Shown here: positions 5,114 to 11,429 of the stretch, piece by piece
Numbering within the stretch: position 1 is the first letter of the stretch
How the letters are laid out: every line of letters starts with the position of its first letter
NCBI GenBank assembly: GCA_902774155.1
Contig: CACYHF010000010.1
Location: 1-50,081 of the forward strand
DNA: 50,081 nucleotides
Direction: 5' to 3'
Source of the DNA: an uncultured Bacteroidia bacterium
GTDB lineage: Bacteria > Bacteroidota > Bacteroidia > Bacteroidales > UBA932
Notes under the pieces: generated by a model
What the model was told of the DNA's origin: nothing
What the model saw: the letters and a program-made list of their open reading frames with translations, nothing else
The model's database searches: none
Made by a program: the position numbers and the translations under genes

Positions 5114-6531
5114 GAAACAGCAAAGTAGTTACCCTGGAAGAAGCCATCCGCCGCAGCGGCCTCAAGGATGGTATGACCATCAGCTTCCACCACCATTTCC
5201 GTGGCGGTGACAAGGTGGTGAATATGGTAGTGGACAAACTGGCCCAGATGGGCTTCAAAGACCTGAAACTGGCCGCTTCCAGCCTCTCCGACGTACATAA
5301 ACCGCTCATCGAGCACATCAAGAATGGCGTCATTACCGGCATTTCCACTTCCGGTCTGCGCGGAGAACTGGCCGATGCCATCTCCCACGGCCTGCTCAAG
5401 GAGCCCGTGGTCTTCCGTTCTCACGGCGGCCGCGGTAGCGCTATCGCCAACGGCGAACTCAAGATCGATGTGGCTTTCCTGGGCGCATCGGCCTGTGACG
5501 AACTGGGCAATGCCTGCGGCGTTCCCCGTAGTGAGAATGCCAAGAGCATTTGCGGTTCGCTGGGTTATGCCCTCCCGGACGCCCGCTATGCCGCCCATGT
5601 GGTGGTGATTACCGACGACCTGGTGGCCTATCCCAATATGCCGCAGAGCATTTCCGCTGCCGATGTGGAGAGCGTCGTGGTGGTGGACAGCGTGGGCGAC
5701 AGCTCCAAGATTGCCGCCGGCGCCATCCGCGATTCCAAGAATCCGCGCGACATCCTGCTTGCCAAACAGGCTGCTAAAGTGATTATTAACTCCGGTTACT
5801 TCAAGGAAGGCTTTAGCATTCAGACCGGTACGGGCGGTGCCTCTTTGGCTGCCGTAAAGTACATCCGTGAAGAGATGATCAGTCGCGGCATCAAGGCTTC
5901 CTTCGCCCTGGGCGGCATCACGGCCCATATGGTGAAACTCCACGAGGAAGGCCTGATCGGCAAACTCATTGACGTCCAGTCCTTCGACAAAGTAGCGGCC
6001 GAATCCATCGCCAAGGATCCGCTCCACCAGGAGGTGTCGGCCGTAGAGTATGCCTCCGGCCAGCATCTGGGTTCTGCCACTCACGCCCTGGATATGGTAA
6101 TCCTCAGCGCCCTGGAGGTGGACACGGATTTCAACGTGAACGTGCTGGTGGGTTCCGACGGTATCATCCGCGGCGCCATCGGCGGTCACCAGGATACCGC
6201 GGCCGACAGTGCCTTGAGCATTATCGTGTGCCCGCTCCTGCGGGGTCGTATCCCCTGCGTGGTGCCCAAGGTGACCACCCTCATTACGCCCGGAAAGAGC
6301 GTGGATGTGGTCGTTACCGAGTATGGCATTGCCGTGAATCCGGCCCGTCCAGAAATTAAAGAAAAACTTCAGGCTGCCGGATTAAATATCGTGGATATTA
6401 AATCGTTGGCAGAGAAGGCGTCTTCCATTATCGGCACGCCGGACGCTTTGCCTTTCGGTGACAAAGTGGTGGGCATCGTGATGAACCGCGACGGTTCCGT
6501 CCTGGACAGGATTTATAACATTTGTGATTAG
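5110..6531 (+). CDS. citF: Citrate lyase alpha subunit (citrate:acetyl-ACP transferase)
   Basis: This 473-residue CitF exchanges the acetyl group on the carrier protein for citrate, forming citryl-ACP. It reads as full-length CitF, with SFHHHFRGGD near residue 20, FRSHGGRGSAIANGEL, the GGASLAAVKYI stretch, NVLVGSDGIIRGAIGGHQDT, and VTEYGIAVNPARPE near the C-terminus. It is somewhat shorter than the roughly 510 residues of the enterobacterial protein, mainly at the N-terminus. It starts in the ATGA overlap with citE, and its stop overlaps the GTG start of citX. Confidence 0.94.
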   Translation: MRNSKVVTLEEAIRRSGLKDGMTISFHHHFRGGDKVVNMVVDKLAQMGFKDLKLAASSLSDVHKPLIEHIKNGVITGISTSGLRGELADAISHGLLKEPVVFRSHGGRGSAIANGELKIDVAFLGASACDELGNACGVPRSENAKSICGSLGYALPDARYAAHVVVITDDLVAYPNMPQSISAADVESVVVVDSVGDSSKIAAGAIRDSKNPRDILLAKQAAKVIINSGYFKEGFSIQTGTGGASLAAVKYIREEMISRGIKASFALGGITAHMVKLHEEGLIGKLIDVQSFDKVAAESIAKDPLHQEVSAVEYASGQHLGSATHALDMVILSALEVDTDFNVNVLVGSDGIIRGAIGGHQDTAADSALSIIVCPLLRGRIPCVVPKVTTLITPGKSVDVVVTEYGIAVNPARPEIKEKLQAAGLNIVDIKSLAEKASSIIGTPDALPFGDKVVGIVMNRDGSVLDRIYNICD

Positions 6532-7123
6532 CCTTAACCAGTTACTGGAAAGCCGCGACGCACGTGCGCAGCATCAGAAGGACTTGCTTGGGAGATTCCC
6601 GGGCAAGTCCCTTCTTTGTCTTACAGTGCAGTTGCCCGGGCCGGAAAAGCGGAATGAACAGTCACTGGCTATAGCGAAGGCCGGGGTATCGGCCATCCGT
6701 CAGGCTTTCCAGCCAGACTATGAAGAACTAATAGATCTGGAGACCGGCTACGAGGGTTACTTCCTGGTCTCCTTACCTGCTTTGGAAGCCAAACGCAAAG
6801 CAGTAGAAGTGGAAGATAACCATCCCCTTGGGCGCTTAATGGATATTGATGTGCTTCATGGGGTGCCAGAGGAACAGACCGAACATCAAGCCAAAGAAAA
6901 TTATTTTTTGTGCAGTTGCTCAAAAAACCAATTTTCTTTGGCACATTCAAAACAGGACCATGTCGAGGCAATCAGCAGGGCGGACATTGGATATGCGCCT
7001 AGAAGGTGCCTTTTGTGTGAGAATGAAGTGAGGTATTGTATGCGAGCTAAAACGCATACTACAAGTGAATTATTGGAACGAATTAAACAAATACTTAACG
7101 AATATGAATTACAGACCCCTTAG
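6524..7123 (+). CDS. citX: Citrate lyase holo-ACP synthase (CitX) with in-frame palindromic insert
   Basis: CitX transfers the phosphoribosyl-dephospho-CoA precursor to the carrier protein CitD. The 199-residue frame starts at a GTG overlapping the citF stop. It has the family pattern LLESRDARAQHQ at the N-terminus, NHPLGRLMDIDVL in the middle, the cysteine motif RRCLLCE and MRAKTHTTSELL at the C-terminus. Compared with enterobacterial CitX there are about 30 extra residues between DIDVL and AISRADIGY. They contain the translated palindromic element at 6890-6942 (peptide ENYFLCSCSKNQF). The frame is open throughout, so the protein is probably made, with an extra loop. Confidence 0.9.
   Translation: MISLNQLLESRDARAQHQKDLLGRFPGKSLLCLTVQLPGPEKRNEQSLAIAKAGVSAIRQAFQPDYEELIDLETGYEGYFLVSLPALEAKRKAVEVEDNHPLGRLMDIDVLHGVPEEQTEHQAKENYFLCSCSKNQFSLAHSKQDHVEAISRADIGYAPRRCLLCENEVRYCMRAKTHTTSELLERIKQILNEYELQTP
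6890..6942 (+). repeat. Palindromic element copy 1 (in citX)
   Basis: The 39-bp core (6897-6935) begins AAAATTATTTTTTG and ends CAAAAAACCAATTTT around the centre TGCAGTTGCT. It is an imperfect palindrome, with a single A opposite CC. Seven-base arms GCCAAAG (6890-6896) and CTTTGGC (6936-6942) extend the hairpin perfectly and are not shared with other copies. It reads through citX in frame as ENYFLCSCSKNQF. It is strikingly AT-rich against the surrounding gene. Confidence 0.9.
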
Positions 7124-9092
7124 TCAAGAACAGATAGAATTCCTGATCCAACGCGGCTGTCGGGCCGATGACTGGTCCACCGTTTATACATCCGATCCGG
7201 AGTCCTTGTCATATATCCGTGGGGTTCGTTTTTCGGGGACGGTCAAGTTCGGCCGGTTCCAGGAGGTGTTCGTGCTTCCCGGCGGAGTGAAGAAGCATTC
7301 CGGGTTGCGGGAGGCCACCCTGCATAATGTGACGGTGGGAGATGATTCCCTCATTGAGAATGTGACCAATTATGTGGCCAACTACGACATTGGCTCGCAT
7401 ACGTATATTGAGAATGTGGACCTGATGGTTTGCGAGGGGCCTTCCCGGTTCGGAAACGGCGTGGAAGTGTCTGTCCTGAGCGAGACCGGCGGCCGGGAGG
7501 TGAAGATTTACGACCGCCTGAGCGCCCAGATTGCCTATGTGCTGGCTATGTATCGGCATCGGCCTGCCCTGATTGCCCGCCTCAATGCTATGATTGATGA
7601 GTATGCTGATTTGCAGTGCTCCAGCCGCGGTCGCATCGGAGATCACGTCTCCATCCGGAACACGCGCCATATCAATGGCGTGCGCATTGGGGACTATGCC
7701 GTCATCAGCGGCACCAGCCGCCTGCGCAATGGCAGTGTGAACAGCAATCAATCGGCCCCGGTCACCATTGCACACGGGGTAATTGCCGACGATTTCATTA
7801 TCTGCAGCGGATCCCACGTCTCCGACAATACCTCCCTGGAGCGTTGCTTTGTTGGGCAGAGCTGCCGCTTGGGGCACGGTTACAGTGCCTCGGATTCGCT
7901 CTTTTTCAGCAATTGCCAGGAGGAGAACGGAGAGGCCTGCGCCATTTTTGCCGGTCCTTTTACGGTAACGCACCACAAGAGTACGCTTCTGATAGCCGGC
8001 ATGTTCTCCTTTATGAACGCCGGCAGCGGCTCCAACCAGAGCAATCATATGTACAAGCTGGGTCCCATGCACCAGGGCATCCTGGAAAGGGGCGCCAAGA
8101 CTTCTTCCGACTCCTATATCCTGTGGCCTTCCCGTGTGGGCGCTTTCTCGCTGGTGATGGGTCGGCACGTCACCCATTCCGACACGTCCAACCTGCCGTT
8201 CTCCTATCTGATCGAACAGCAGAATACCACCTATCTGGTGCCGGGCGTGAACCTGCGCAGCGTGGGAACGGTGCGTGATGCCCAGAAATGGCCCAAACGA
8301 GACTCCCGCAAGGATCCGGACAAACTGGATTGCATCAATTACAACCTTCTGAGCCCTTACACCATCCAGAAGATGTTCAAGGGGATTCAGCTGCTCAGGA
8401 ACCTGCAGTATTCGTCCGGTGAGCTCTCTGACATTTACTCCTATCACAGCACTAAGATCCGCAACAAATCGCTGCGGAACGGCATTCATTATTACCACAC
8501 GGCCATTACCAAGTTCCTGGGCAATTCCATCATCAAACGCCTGGAGAATCTTCCTGCAGGTGCCTCGGACGAGACCATCCGCGAGGCGCTGAAGCCCACC
8601 TGCTCCTTCGGGAAAGGGGACTGGGCCGATGTGAGCGGGCTCATCGTTCCCAAGGATGCCCTGGTGAATCTCATTGAGCAGGTGGAAAGGGGAGAACTGA
8701 CTTTGGAGGAACTGTTTGCGGCTTTCCACCGTCTGCACCAGCAGTATTATGATGCCGAATGGACCTGGGCCTATGACAAGTATGCATCTTTCTTCGGTTA
8801 TCCGCTGGAAACCATTACGGCCGCCCAAGTGATTGAGATTGTGGAGCGCTGGAAAGAGGCGGTAATCGGCCTGGATAAGGAACTGTACGAAGACGCCCAC
8901 AAGGAGTTCAACCTGGCCTCCATGACCAGTTTCGGGGCCGATGGCGGCAAGGAAATCAAAGAGCGTGACTTCAGCCAGGTCCGGGGCGATTTCGAATCCA
9001 ATTCCTTCGTGCAGGCTGTGTTGGACCACATCCGGAAGAAGGAAGCCCTGGGTGATGAGCTGATCCAGAGACTGAAGACGTATGGCGCATAA
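7104..9092 (+). CDS. DUF4954 family protein (left-handed beta-helix, nucleotidyltransferase-partner-like)
   Basis: This 662-residue protein of the Bacteroidetes family DUF4954 has an N-terminus YRPLSQEQIEFLIQRGC and the conserved VLPGGVKKHSG and ATLHNVTVGD. Many isoleucine/valine-spaced hexapeptide-like repeats (GDHVSIRNTRHINGVRIGDY and others) indicate a left-handed parallel beta-helix over residues of roughly 40-330, with a mainly helical C-terminal third. No enzymatic role is established for the family, though similar helices occur in sugar-nucleotide and acyl transferases. ATG 7104 is chosen because it gives the family N-terminus; it overlaps the end of citX by 20 bp. Its place between citX and citC-citG is unexpected and may only be operon hitchhiking. 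Confidence 0.85.
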   Translation: MNYRPLSQEQIEFLIQRGCRADDWSTVYTSDPESLSYIRGVRFSGTVKFGRFQEVFVLPGGVKKHSGLREATLHNVTVGDDSLIENVTNYVANYDIGSHTYIENVDLMVCEGPSRFGNGVEVSVLSETGGREVKIYDRLSAQIAYVLAMYRHRPALIARLNAMIDEYADLQCSSRGRIGDHVSIRNTRHINGVRIGDYAVISGTSRLRNGSVNSNQSAPVTIAHGVIADDFIICSGSHVSDNTSLERCFVGQSCRLGHGYSASDSLFFSNCQEENGEACAIFAGPFTVTHHKSTLLIAGMFSFMNAGSGSNQSNHMYKLGPMHQGILERGAKTSSDSYILWPSRVGAFSLVMGRHVTHSDTSNLPFSYLIEQQNTTYLVPGVNLRSVGTVRDAQKWPKRDSRKDPDKLDCINYNLLSPYTIQKMFKGIQLLRNLQYSSGELSDIYSYHSTKIRNKSLRNGIHYYHTAITKFLGNSIIKRLENLPAGASDETIREALKPTCSFGKGDWADVSGLIVPKDALVNLIEQVERGELTLEELFAAFHRLHQQYYDAEWTWAYDKYASFFGYPLETITAAQVIEIVERWKEAVIGLDKELYEDAHKEFNLASMTSFGADGGKEIKERDFSQVRGDFESNSFVQAVLDHIRKKEALGDELIQRLKTYGA

Positions 9093-9408
9093 GTTTGTGA
9101 TTATATCGCTTCCGGGAGCGCGTGAGGGGATGTTGCTGTACGGCAATGTGGGGCAGCACCGGGAGCTGGTAGAGGAGTTCGAGCAGCGGACGGGCCAGTA
9201 TGTGCGGGTCCACGGCGGCGGGTTTTATCACCAGAACGAGAAGGACCGCACTTTCACGCTATACGGACATTCGGGCGACTATGGCTCTCCGCAGTTTGGA
9301 TGGATGAACAGCATCCCCAGCTTGCTCAAAGGCTATCGCTTTGTCTTTACAACTTCCCTGAATTTGCCGGGAAACGAGCTGGATTTGGAGAATGTTTGCT
9401 GGTTTTAG
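9082..9408 (+). CDS. Small hypothetical protein
   Basis: This 108-residue soluble protein overlaps the end of the DUF4954 gene by 11 bp. It starts MAHKFVIISLPG and has no signal peptide, membrane segment or motif I recognise. Composition is ordinary, rich in Gly and aromatic residues (GGGFYHQNEKDRTFTLYGHS). The overlap and the matching codon use favour a real gene co-transcribed with its neighbour. The function is unknown. Confidence 0.65.
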   Translation: MAHKFVIISLPGAREGMLLYGNVGQHRELVEEFEQRTGQYVRVHGGGFYHQNEKDRTFTLYGHSGDYGSPQFGWMNSIPSLLKGYRFVFTTSLNLPGNELDLENVCWF

Positions 9409-9415
9409 TTAATAA

Positions 9416-9446
9416 TTATAATAAAAGCTTTGCTTTTTTATAATAA
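9416..9446 (+). terminator. AT-rich hairpin, possible terminator
   Basis: TTATAATAAAAGC (9416-9428) pairs, with one bulge, with GCTTTTTTATAATAA (9432-9446) around a TTT loop, just after the stop at 9408. The stem is almost pure A-T and it overlaps the promoter proposed for citC-citG, so terminator function is only possible. Confidence 0.35.
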
Positions 9447-9459
9447 ATCCGTACATTCG
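9429..9459 (+). promoter_or_regulatory. Probable promoter of citC-citG-acn-icd
   Basis: TTTG (9429-9432) is followed by 19 bp and TACATTCG (9452-9459), one base away from TAnnTTTG. Transcription would start near 9466, leaving a leader of about 47 nt before the ATG at 9513. It would allow the second half of the citrate module to be expressed apart from citDEFX. Confidence 0.55.
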
Positions 9460-9512
9460 CATCGCAATTGTTTTGCGGGTCATACCGGGAGTATTGGGAA
9501 GCCTGCGGGATA

Positions 9513-11429
9513 ATGGAAAAGTACGAAAACCGCCACATATCGGAGATGCCGCTTTCATCTCCTTTCTTCCGCAACAAGGTGGAGCGCTTCCTCGGAGAAA
9601 ATGGTCTCCGGATGGAAGCATTAGATGTATATTATGCCATCGAAGACGAAGATGGCAACATCCTGGCCGGAGCCGGCCTTTCCCGTGACATTATCAAGTG
9701 CATTGCCGTGGCAGAGCAGGCCCGGCAGGAGGGTTTGGTGGCTCCGCTGGTTTCGCATCTGATTTCCCTGGCATCGGCCCGGGGCATCCTGGAGCTCAAA
9801 CTCTTTACCAAGCCGGAGAACCAGGCCATCTTTGAAAGCCTGGGCTTCCATCTCTTAGCCAGTGCCCCCAAGGCCATCCTGATGGAAAACGGCCGGGGAC
9901 TGGAGCGCTACTGCGCGTATTTGAAAGGCTTCGCCAAGGAAGGCCGATGCGGCGTAGTGGTGATGAATGCCAATCCCTTCACCCTGGGGCATCTGTATCT
10001 CCTGGAACAGGCCGCTTCTCAAGTGGATACACTGTATGTAATTCCCGTCAAAGAAGACCTGTCCCAATTCCCATACACAGAGCGCCTGGCCATGATTAAG
10101 GCCGCTGTGGGTGGAGAGTCAGAAGAAAATTATTTTTTGTGCAGTAGCTCAAAAAACCAATTTTCTTCTGAAAAAATAGCACCAGGAAGCTCATCGTGGC
10201 AAAAAATTGGTTTTTCGCAAAGCGTTGCGAAAAATAATTTTTTGCCGTCGAAAGTCGTTGTACTGGAGGGATCGGATTATCAGATTTCGGCCGCCACGTT
10301 CCCTACTTATTTCTTAAAGGACTTGTCGGATGCTGCTGAGACGCAGATGCGGCTGGACCTGGACCTTTTCGCGCGGCACATTGCCCCGGCCCTGAACGCC
10401 TCCGTGCGTTTTGTGGGCTCGGAACCCCTTGACGCTCTCACTAACCAATATAACACGCTTATCCCTAACGCAGTTATTATTCCCCGGCTAACGGCCGAAA
10501 AAAATTATTTTTTGCAAGGCTTTGCAAAAAACCAATTTTCCGATGCTGATATTATTTCGGCCTCCCGGGTGCGGAAGTATTTGGCGGAAGGGGATTTCCA
10601 TTCGGCGGCAGCGCTGTGCCCGGAAACCACGTGGCCGTATTTGCTGGCGGTGCTGGCACAGCGGGCGCTGCAGATGGAACTGGATCTGCCTTTGAAGCCC
10701 GGACTGGTGTGTCCGGACTCCAACGGCGCGCACAGTGACATGGACTATGCTCTGATGCAGAGGGGCATTGCAGCTATCCGTCCTTTCTTTGCCCCCATGG
10801 CTATGGCCGATACCCCGGAAACGCTGCGGCAGTTGGGGATAGAGGCCGAAATGGCGATGATGGCGGCTACGGGTGGGGTGAATACCCATCGCGGGGCCAT
10901 CTTCTGCCTGGGGCTTGCGCTGAATGCGTGGATGCAAGGTGCTCACAATGAGGAGCTTATGCAAAATCGATTAGCTGAAACGGCACAATCGATTTTCCGT
11001 ATTCAATTGAGCAACAATGGCTTAGCCACCACGCCTGAGGCATTGTGTGGCGCACGGCAGATAGCCGCCAGCGGCTACCGGATCCTTTTCGAAGACTGGC
11101 TGCCGTATCTACGGACGGACGAAAGGGCCTCTTCGCCCCTCCATTTACAGAAGCTTCTGCTGCGCATTATGTCCACCCTGGACGATACCTGTGTGGTCAA
11201 GCGGGCGGGCGCGGAACGGGCCCAGCTGGTTAAAGGTGAAGCCGAAGCTATGCTAATGGCCGAAGAAAAATGGTTTTTTGCAAAGCCTTGCGAAAAATAT
11301 TTTTCTTCGGATGAAACAAAGCAGAACCAATTACAGGAATTGTGCGACCGCTATGCGGCTGAGGGGATTTCTCCCGGCGGAGCGGCCGACATGTTGGCAT
11401 TGACGATTTTTATAGATTCTATTATATGA
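9513..11429 (+). CDS. citC: Citrate lyase ligase-triphosphoribosyl-dephospho-CoA synthase fusion (CitC-CitG)
   Basis: This is a 638-residue two-domain enzyme. Residues 1 to about 370 are CitC, which acetylates the citrate lyase prosthetic group with ATP. It has a GNAT-like N-terminus, the nucleotidyltransferase motif MNANPFTLGHLYLLEQA, ATFPTYFLKD and SASRVRKYL. Residues from about 385 are CitG, which makes the prosthetic-group precursor from ATP and dephospho-CoA, with KPGLVCPDSNGAHSDMD, GGVNTHRGAIF and GISPGGAADMLALT. Four palindromic elements lie in the frame: three in CitC, at positions where enterobacterial CitC has short loops, and one in CitG. ATG 9513 is preferred over an upstream in-frame start at 9468 because it leaves room for the promoter. 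The end overlaps aconitase by an ATGA. Confidence 0.9.
   Translation: MEKYENRHISEMPLSSPFFRNKVERFLGENGLRMEALDVYYAIEDEDGNILAGAGLSRDIIKCIAVAEQARQEGLVAPLVSHLISLASARGILELKLFTKPENQAIFESLGFHLLASAPKAILMENGRGLERYCAYLKGFAKEGRCGVVVMNANPFTLGHLYLLEQAASQVDTLYVIPVKEDLSQFPYTERLAMIKAAVGGESEENYFLCSSSKNQFSSEKIAPGSSSWQKIGFSQSVAKNNFLPSKVVVLEGSDYQISAATFPTYFLKDLSDAAETQMRLDLDLFARHIAPALNASVRFVGSEPLDALTNQYNTLIPNAVIIPRLTAEKNYFLQGFAKNQFSDADIISASRVRKYLAEGDFHSAAALCPETTWPYLLAVLAQRALQMELDLPLKPGLVCPDSNGAHSDMDYALMQRGIAAIRPFFAPMAMADTPETLRQLGIEAEMAMMAATGGVNTHRGAIFCLGLALNAWMQGAHNEELMQNRLAETAQSIFRIQLSNNGLATTPEALCGARQIAASGYRILFEDWLPYLRTDERASSPLHLQKLLLRIMSTLDDTCVVKRAGAERAQLVKGEAEAMLMAEEKWFFAKPCEKYFSSDETKQNQLQELCDRYAAEGISPGGAADMLALTIFIDSII
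10119..10171 (+). repeat. Palindromic element copy 2 (in citC part)
   Basis: The 39-bp core (10126-10164) differs from copy 1 at one base, in the centre (TGCAGTAGCT). The arms TCAGAAG (10119-10125) and CTTCTGA (10165-10171) are perfect inverted copies of each other and differ from those of copy 1. The reading phase is the same as in copy 1, giving ENYFLCSSSKNQF. Confidence 0.9.
10198..10246 (-). repeat. Palindromic element copy 3, reverse orientation (in citC part)
   Basis: The core (10203-10241) is again 39 bp but inverted: AAAATTGG comes first and TAATTTT last. The centre is a tight hairpin CGCAA-AGCG-TTGCG. The arms are GGCAA and TTGCC. It reads in frame as KIGFSQSVAKNNF, only 26 bp after copy 2. 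Confidence 0.88.
10501..10539 (+). repeat. Palindromic element copy 4 (in citC part)
   Basis: The 39-bp core has outer parts identical to copies 1 and 2 (AAAATTATTTTTTG and CAAAAAACCAATTTT) and the centre CAAGGCTTTG of the hairpin type seen in copies 3 and 5. The flanks GCCGAAA and CCGATGC are not complementary, so this is the one copy without matching arms. It reads as KNYFLQGFAKNQF in the same phase as copies 1 and 2. Confidence 0.88.
10963..10996. repeat. Pair of AAAATCGATT inverted repeats in citG part
   Basis: AAAATCGATT (10963-10972) and its exact reverse complement AATCGATTTT (10987-10996) lie 14 bp apart inside the CitG coding part. They are AT-rich within a GC-rich gene but unrelated in sequence to the 39-bp element, and the protein shows no obvious extra residues here. 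Confidence 0.4.
11260..11310 (-). repeat. Palindromic element copy 5, reverse orientation (in citG part)
   Basis: The 39-bp core (11266-11304) runs AAAAATGG through to TATTTTT with centre GCAA-AGCC-TTGC. It is slightly diverged from the consensus. The arms CCGAAG (11260-11265) and CTTCGG (11305-11310) are perfect inverted copies. It reads in frame as KWFFAKPCEKYF and lies in the variable stretch before the conserved SPGGAADM motif of CitG. Confidence 0.87.

Follow-up and report, generated by a model that had tools for sequence, protein, structure and literature searches.

Palindromes that code within proteins are best known from Rickettsia. Five palindromic sequences were noted in citX and the fused citC-citG frame of the present window (i.e., the whole 50,081-nt stretch of Bacteroidales DNA analyzed here), raising the question of whether they belong to one repeat family, how far such a family extends, and how it comes to reside in coding sequences.

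Hairpin repeats in citX and citC-citG

All five cores proposed by the first-pass annotation were present at the coordinates listed in Table 1, each 39 bp in length. Three are in forward and two in inverted orientation; all show the asymmetry of A against CC and leave the host reading frame open. A covariance-model search of the window (E ≤ 0.1) returned matches at these five sites only. The five hairpin repeats are real and are members of one repeat family. The 39-bp palindromic core was retained as described, but the full structural unit proved larger, being a 55-nt hairpin. Similarly, the proposed gain of 13 codons per copy did not apply to citC site c, where the window protein exceeds the G146 orthologue by 19 residues (57 nt, counted on the alignment).

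Table 1 Hairpin copies and their host genes in the window
Feature	Position	Strand	Remarks
citX, host gene	6524..7123	+	Pfam CitX
55-nt hairpin copy in citX	6889..6943	+	Core 6897-6935; phase ENYF..KNQF
citC-citG fused frame, host gene	9513..11429	+	Pfam Citrate_ly_lig and CitG
55-nt hairpin copy, citC loop	10118..10172	+	Core 10126-10164; phase ENYF
55-nt hairpin copy, inverted, same citC loop	10195..10249	-	Core 10203-10241; reads KIGFSQSVAKNNF
55-nt hairpin copy, citC site c	10493..10547	+	Core 10501-10539; phase KNYF; partial decay of right arm
55-nt hairpin copy, inverted, in citG	11258..11312	-	Core 11266-11304; reads EKWFFAKPCEKYF

Structure and covariation of the hairpin

The unit consists of 12 outer pairs, two more pairs (TT..AA), an A versus CC bulge, and approximately nine inner pairs that close a small loop. 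For the structural analysis, the stem test removed 9 of 200 distinct pattern matches and left 191 copies, including 53 of a sister form with GGGCGG arms (hereafter RG). Among the 138 non-RG copies, 124 had a 31-nt inner core and yielded 116 distinct windows, in which the 12 positions outside the inner TT..AA were paired at 83-100% and the thirteenth position at 24%. The stem is kept paired by compensatory changes. Across 27 tested pairs, 4 of which lie outside the stem, these 116 copies had 477 both-side changes against a maximum of 202 in 200 shuffles, and the first 12 copies showed 27 against a shuffled mean of 10.2, a value reached in 0 of 500 shuffles, with the copies taken as unrelated and kinship ignored in the shuffling. 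As the search pattern requires the A/CC bulge, the invariance of the bulge among pattern matches is partly by construction; the bulge was also found in copies picked up by the covariance model. In addition, some copies have GGCC(A/C/T)AC on their 5' side and a conserved tail, ATCGCAACGCC(A/C)ACGC, on their 3' side. Rfam searches of four loci gave nothing at or above the gathering score.

Distribution within the genome and the genus

The genome from which the window derives (2.43 Mb, 88 contigs) was scanned with a loose pattern drawn from the copies, revealing 12 sites at 0-1 mismatch and three chance-like sites at three mismatches. The reversed-pattern control gave no match in the whole genome, indicating, in comparison with the 12 strong matches, that the five repeats are not due to chance. 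A covariance model built on the 12 strong copies added one diverged copy (C8:51740, 49.9 bits). The restriction to citX and citC-citG suggested by the first-pass annotation thus holds within the window but not genome-wide, as all 12 strong copies are genic, in frame, and open, and are distributed over eight host proteins (mutY, yggS, citX, citC with three copies, citG, ribF with two, a HAD phosphatase, GT2, and atpG). Pfam supported these hosts as CitX, CitC-CitG, MutY (HhH-GPD and NUDIX_4), a YggS-type Ala_racemase_N protein, RibF (FAD_syn and Flavokinase), a HAD phosphatase, a GT2 glycosyltransferase, and ATP synthase gamma. Two further features were seen beside such hosts: in ribF (locus L016, G000:C13) an in-frame array reading CHSEHSYCHSERSEES adjoins two copies of the element, and at L017 (G000:C18) the HAD phosphatase frame runs open into a tRNA_edit domain over 433 codons, possibly as a fusion.

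Beyond this genome, the family was present in 65 of 400 genomes of the same genus, with copy numbers being lower bounds due to the scoring of at most 14 candidates per genome. It was found in none of 24 genomes of other families, and an order-wide draw of 198 genomes gave two weak matches outside the genus (E values of 1e-4 and 9e-4). Pattern scanning yielded at least 115 loci, 106 of which hold a copy passing the stem test, whereas in a viral collection none of four pattern loci passed. A profile search without further finds had been put forward as a refutation of such a family; the search recovered many more copies in congeners. Among the matches listed, named records with the element are mostly ruminant-gut Bacteroidales MAGs, and the recurrence of the family in many separately named MAGs speaks against an assembly artefact. 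The element occurred at 22 places in G028, and just three of these lie within open frames of at least 300 codons, indicating that the family also resides outside genes.

Host proteins and reading phase

In the genome of the window, all ten forward copies use one phase, even though all three forward frames are open over the 55 nt in eight of them. The single reading phase that had been noted for the forward copies was also borne out elsewhere: in nine Pfam-confirmed host families, among the pattern-scan matches listed, 27 of 27 forward copies are in that phase and two more copies are inverted. This count covers 29 of the 127 listed pattern-scan copies, i.e., those with an ORF in the nine confirmed families (the other 98 being unassigned), and it includes orthologues, so that not all copies are independent. 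In-phase hosts in other genomes, as identified by Pfam, were MutY, an NTP-transferase/HAD protein, a SpoU methylase, GT2, the ATP synthase A chain, ATP synthase gamma, a GDP-mannose dehydratase, CitC-CitG, and a DNA alkylation repair enzyme. The copies in DNA polymerase I and a 2-hydroxyacid dehydrogenase are situated at the extreme start of the frame and may lie 5' of the true start codon.

When non-RG copies were grouped by long-ORF cluster, 15 clusters had them in the same phase, 4 and 2 clusters in the other forward phases, and 12 in inverted orientation. Eight tested off-phase ORFs had no Pfam match and may be spurious, while three inverted-copy ORFs are real genes. The hosts of inverted copies in other genomes were an MFS transporter, a PF00144 serine hydrolase, and a DEAD helicase. 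Among the RG copies located in long ORFs, no phase was preferred (5, 5, and 4 forward; 5 inverted). The frame in use encodes a mild polar peptide, and the remaining forward frames encode basic or hydrophobic ones; we infer that the phase is filtered by protein tolerance.

Presence, absence, and decay at orthologous sites

The best 30 orthologous loci were compared for CitC-CitG (108 genomes with a match) and for MutY (42 genomes with a match). Among the best 30 CitC-CitG orthologues, the citC loop holds an insert of this type in 10, site c in 5, and the citG site in 5, with one additional, truncated insert at the citG site; at citC site c, L289 and L290 retain diverged remnants. Among the best 30 MutY orthologues, the NUDIX loop carries an insert in five (three forward, two inverted). 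Presence at the citC, citG, and mutY sites therefore varies among orthologues, which does not agree with insertions that are ancient and fixed. The copies at these sites were located in length-variable loops, in line with the loop positions suggested earlier, and the same loops differ in length also among orthologues without the repeat. In a predicted MutY model with a mean pLDDT of 87.3, residues 273-287, just before and extending into the insert, fell below 50.

In the citG of G334 (L294), the center of the copy has been deleted with the frame kept, while the related G005 copy is intact and shows the direct repeat GAAAAAT that marks the deletion ends.

Other repeats were observed at the same loops. 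Other palindromic families occur there in frame, reading VMPGSDRAS, PDQVGND, HSERSEES, and similar peptides, with carriers at L289, L291, L293, L298, L300, and L305 for citC-citG and at L320, L325, L334, and L335 for mutY. In the citC-citG of RUG478 (L095), a composite insert is present three times, and the frame is shifted next to one of these copies of the element, reflecting either a broken gene or an assembly error.

Proposed origin and mobilization

Taken together, the element probably represents a REP-sized family of non-autonomous palindromic repeats that belongs to one Bacteroidales genus and has spread within genes as well as outside them, its movement being suggested by its distribution. 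Copies would insert as hairpin-forming single strands through an enzyme acting in trans; gene-breaking insertions would be lost, while those in exposed loops and in the mildest frame (ENYFSQGFAKNQF) would survive as translated peptides, and later shrinkage of the copies could proceed by deletion at the hairpin center. The frameshift at L095 and the lack of a preferred phase among RG copies weigh against this reading.

The alternative of a classical REP-RAYT system, with the hairpins as REPs moved by a dedicated RAYT (TnpA-REP) flanked by copies, was considered in view of the wide occurrence of RAYT-type proteins (PF01797, in 78 of 101 genomes of the genus). Four RAYT-like genes, referred to as seeds, have a copy of the element 124-175 bp away, and the sole NCBIfam entry matching them was REP_Tyr_transpos, under its cut-off; the RAYT profile gave no match to solved structures. 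Furthermore, when the genomes with the best RAYT matches were taken without the seeds, 17 of 26 carried the element compared with 65 of 400 overall (Fisher 2e-9, kinship ignored), a co-occurrence that still counts for RAYT.

Against this reading, copies were largely missing from the RAYT loci themselves. Among the best 30 RAYT loci of the genus, only the four seeds have a copy; none was found at 30 RAYT loci in 13 element-carrying genomes (three of these loci overlapping the best-30 set), nor at any of the 14 RAYTs of the window's genome, G005, and G028 (E ≤ 0.05). Likewise, 66 listed copies and 63 of 72 listed RAYT matches were compared, and none lay within 3 kb of each other. Two of the four seeds are flanked on both sides by other repeats, namely GATCTTAAGC arrays in G028, which the related G420 RAYT also has, and in G326 a 24-nt repeat; the remaining two had no repeat common to both flanks. 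The five RAYTs located less than 500 bp from a copy share one 16-row clade in a 38-RAYT tree without forming one group. Motif analysis pointed in the same direction: none of 152 copies has GT[AG]G immediately at the 5' hairpin foot, whichever strand is read, and within 8 nt 5' the motif is present in one of these copies (forward) and in 29 (reverse strand). C[CT]AC adjoins the opposite foot immediately in 20 of the 124 non-RG copies, and 9 of the 152 copies have CGTC or GACG no more than 8 nt from the hairpin, so that the CGTC tag of CGTC REPs is not a general feature of the family. In summary, the element is a short hairpin repeated in the genome, as REPs are (12 strong copies in the window's genome, 22 places in G028, and a covarying stem), but no cognate RAYT flanked by copies was found among the subset of RAYTs examined. 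Membership of the element in the REPs was not supported, and a REP-RAYT origin is doubtful.

RAYT as the dedicated mobilizer was dropped following flank inspection and the analysis of further RAYT loci. RAYT flanks at L261, L266, L277, L282, L283, and other loci bear hairpins or arrays that differ between RAYTs. None of the genes adjoining copies resembled, by eye, a mobilizer or the parent insertion sequence that a MITE would have.

It was also considered that the element might be the 39-bp core alone, with the arms representing inverted target copies made at each insertion or existing palindromes that the core entered. Arm sequences differ greatly from site to site, and the mutY of G005 (L323) contains a perfect palindrome, GTCTTCGG-CCG-CCGAAGAC, with no core, while in G062 these arms enclose the core; the coreless arms could be either a remnant or a pre-insertion palindrome. 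Nevertheless, the arm length is constant at 12 positions, which disfavors inverted target duplication, and many copies extend past the arms into the conserved tail (31 of 138 non-RG copies match the tail pattern), making an origin of the arms from the target improbable. Finally, the strong conserved hairpin within coding sequence might recall bypassing elements, i.e., a hairpin removed or skipped at the RNA level or in translation with the protein unaltered, yet this is very improbable given that all 12 strong copies of the window's genome are in frame and open and that the forward copies of confirmed families do not deviate from one phase, which skipping does not require.

Relation to known repeats and implications

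The element, probably a mobile non-autonomous repeat, can be compared with three described systems. Rickettsia palindromic elements (RPEs) are described in PMC10969869 as palindromic repeats lying in frame in unrelated protein genes and also outside genes, with a coded peptide. The present element resembles them in being a palindrome in frame in unrelated protein genes, in occurring extragenically, in encoding a peptide, and in its variable presence among orthologues, and it differs in being a 55-nt hairpin of Bacteroidales rather than a repeat of approximately 150 bp in Rickettsia (PMC10969869). The RPE-like reading of the first-pass annotation is thus supported by in-frame palindromes, loop positions, one phase, and variable presence. 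Similarly, intragenic GTAG and CGTC REPs are REP-sized hairpins within ORFs of several species, with CGTC REPs reported also from Bacteroidetes without a dedicated transposase (PMC3733652). The element shares with them its REP size, hairpin formation, and location inside ORFs, whereas it has no GT[AG]G at the 5' foot, as a rule no CGTC, a much longer stem, and a single phase in confirmed families. For the Bacteroidetes TnpA-REP subclass 2.6, PMC6006769 describes atypical flanking hairpins without the GT[AG]G consensus; the phylum and the hairpin without GT[AG]G are common to both, but the present element was not seen as a flanking repeat of the examined RAYTs in the genus. A search of the open-access literature, with subscription papers mostly outside its scope, yielded no description of a family of this kind in Bacteroidales. 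By its behavior, the element stands with RPEs and intragenic REPs as an apparently new family, but it has neither the tag of REPs nor, among the loci examined, a RAYT of its own.

More tentatively, the proteins of this genus may be undergoing lengthening by a guild of palindromic repeats, comprising the element and the VMPGSDRAS, PDQVGND, and HSERSEES repeats, which would share tolerant loops and be moved in trans by a single-strand enzyme. Within ORFs, hairpin and peptide might both be maintained, placing one sequence under structural and protein selection. The hosts include ordinary, probably essential genes (atpG, atpB, mutY, and ribF), and in-frame inserts in MAG proteins are not necessarily assembly noise. 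Hundreds of congeners present the same sites in filled, unfilled, inverted, and decayed form, and thus the entry of selfish DNA into coding sequence, phase filtering, and a possible origin of new protein segments become testable.
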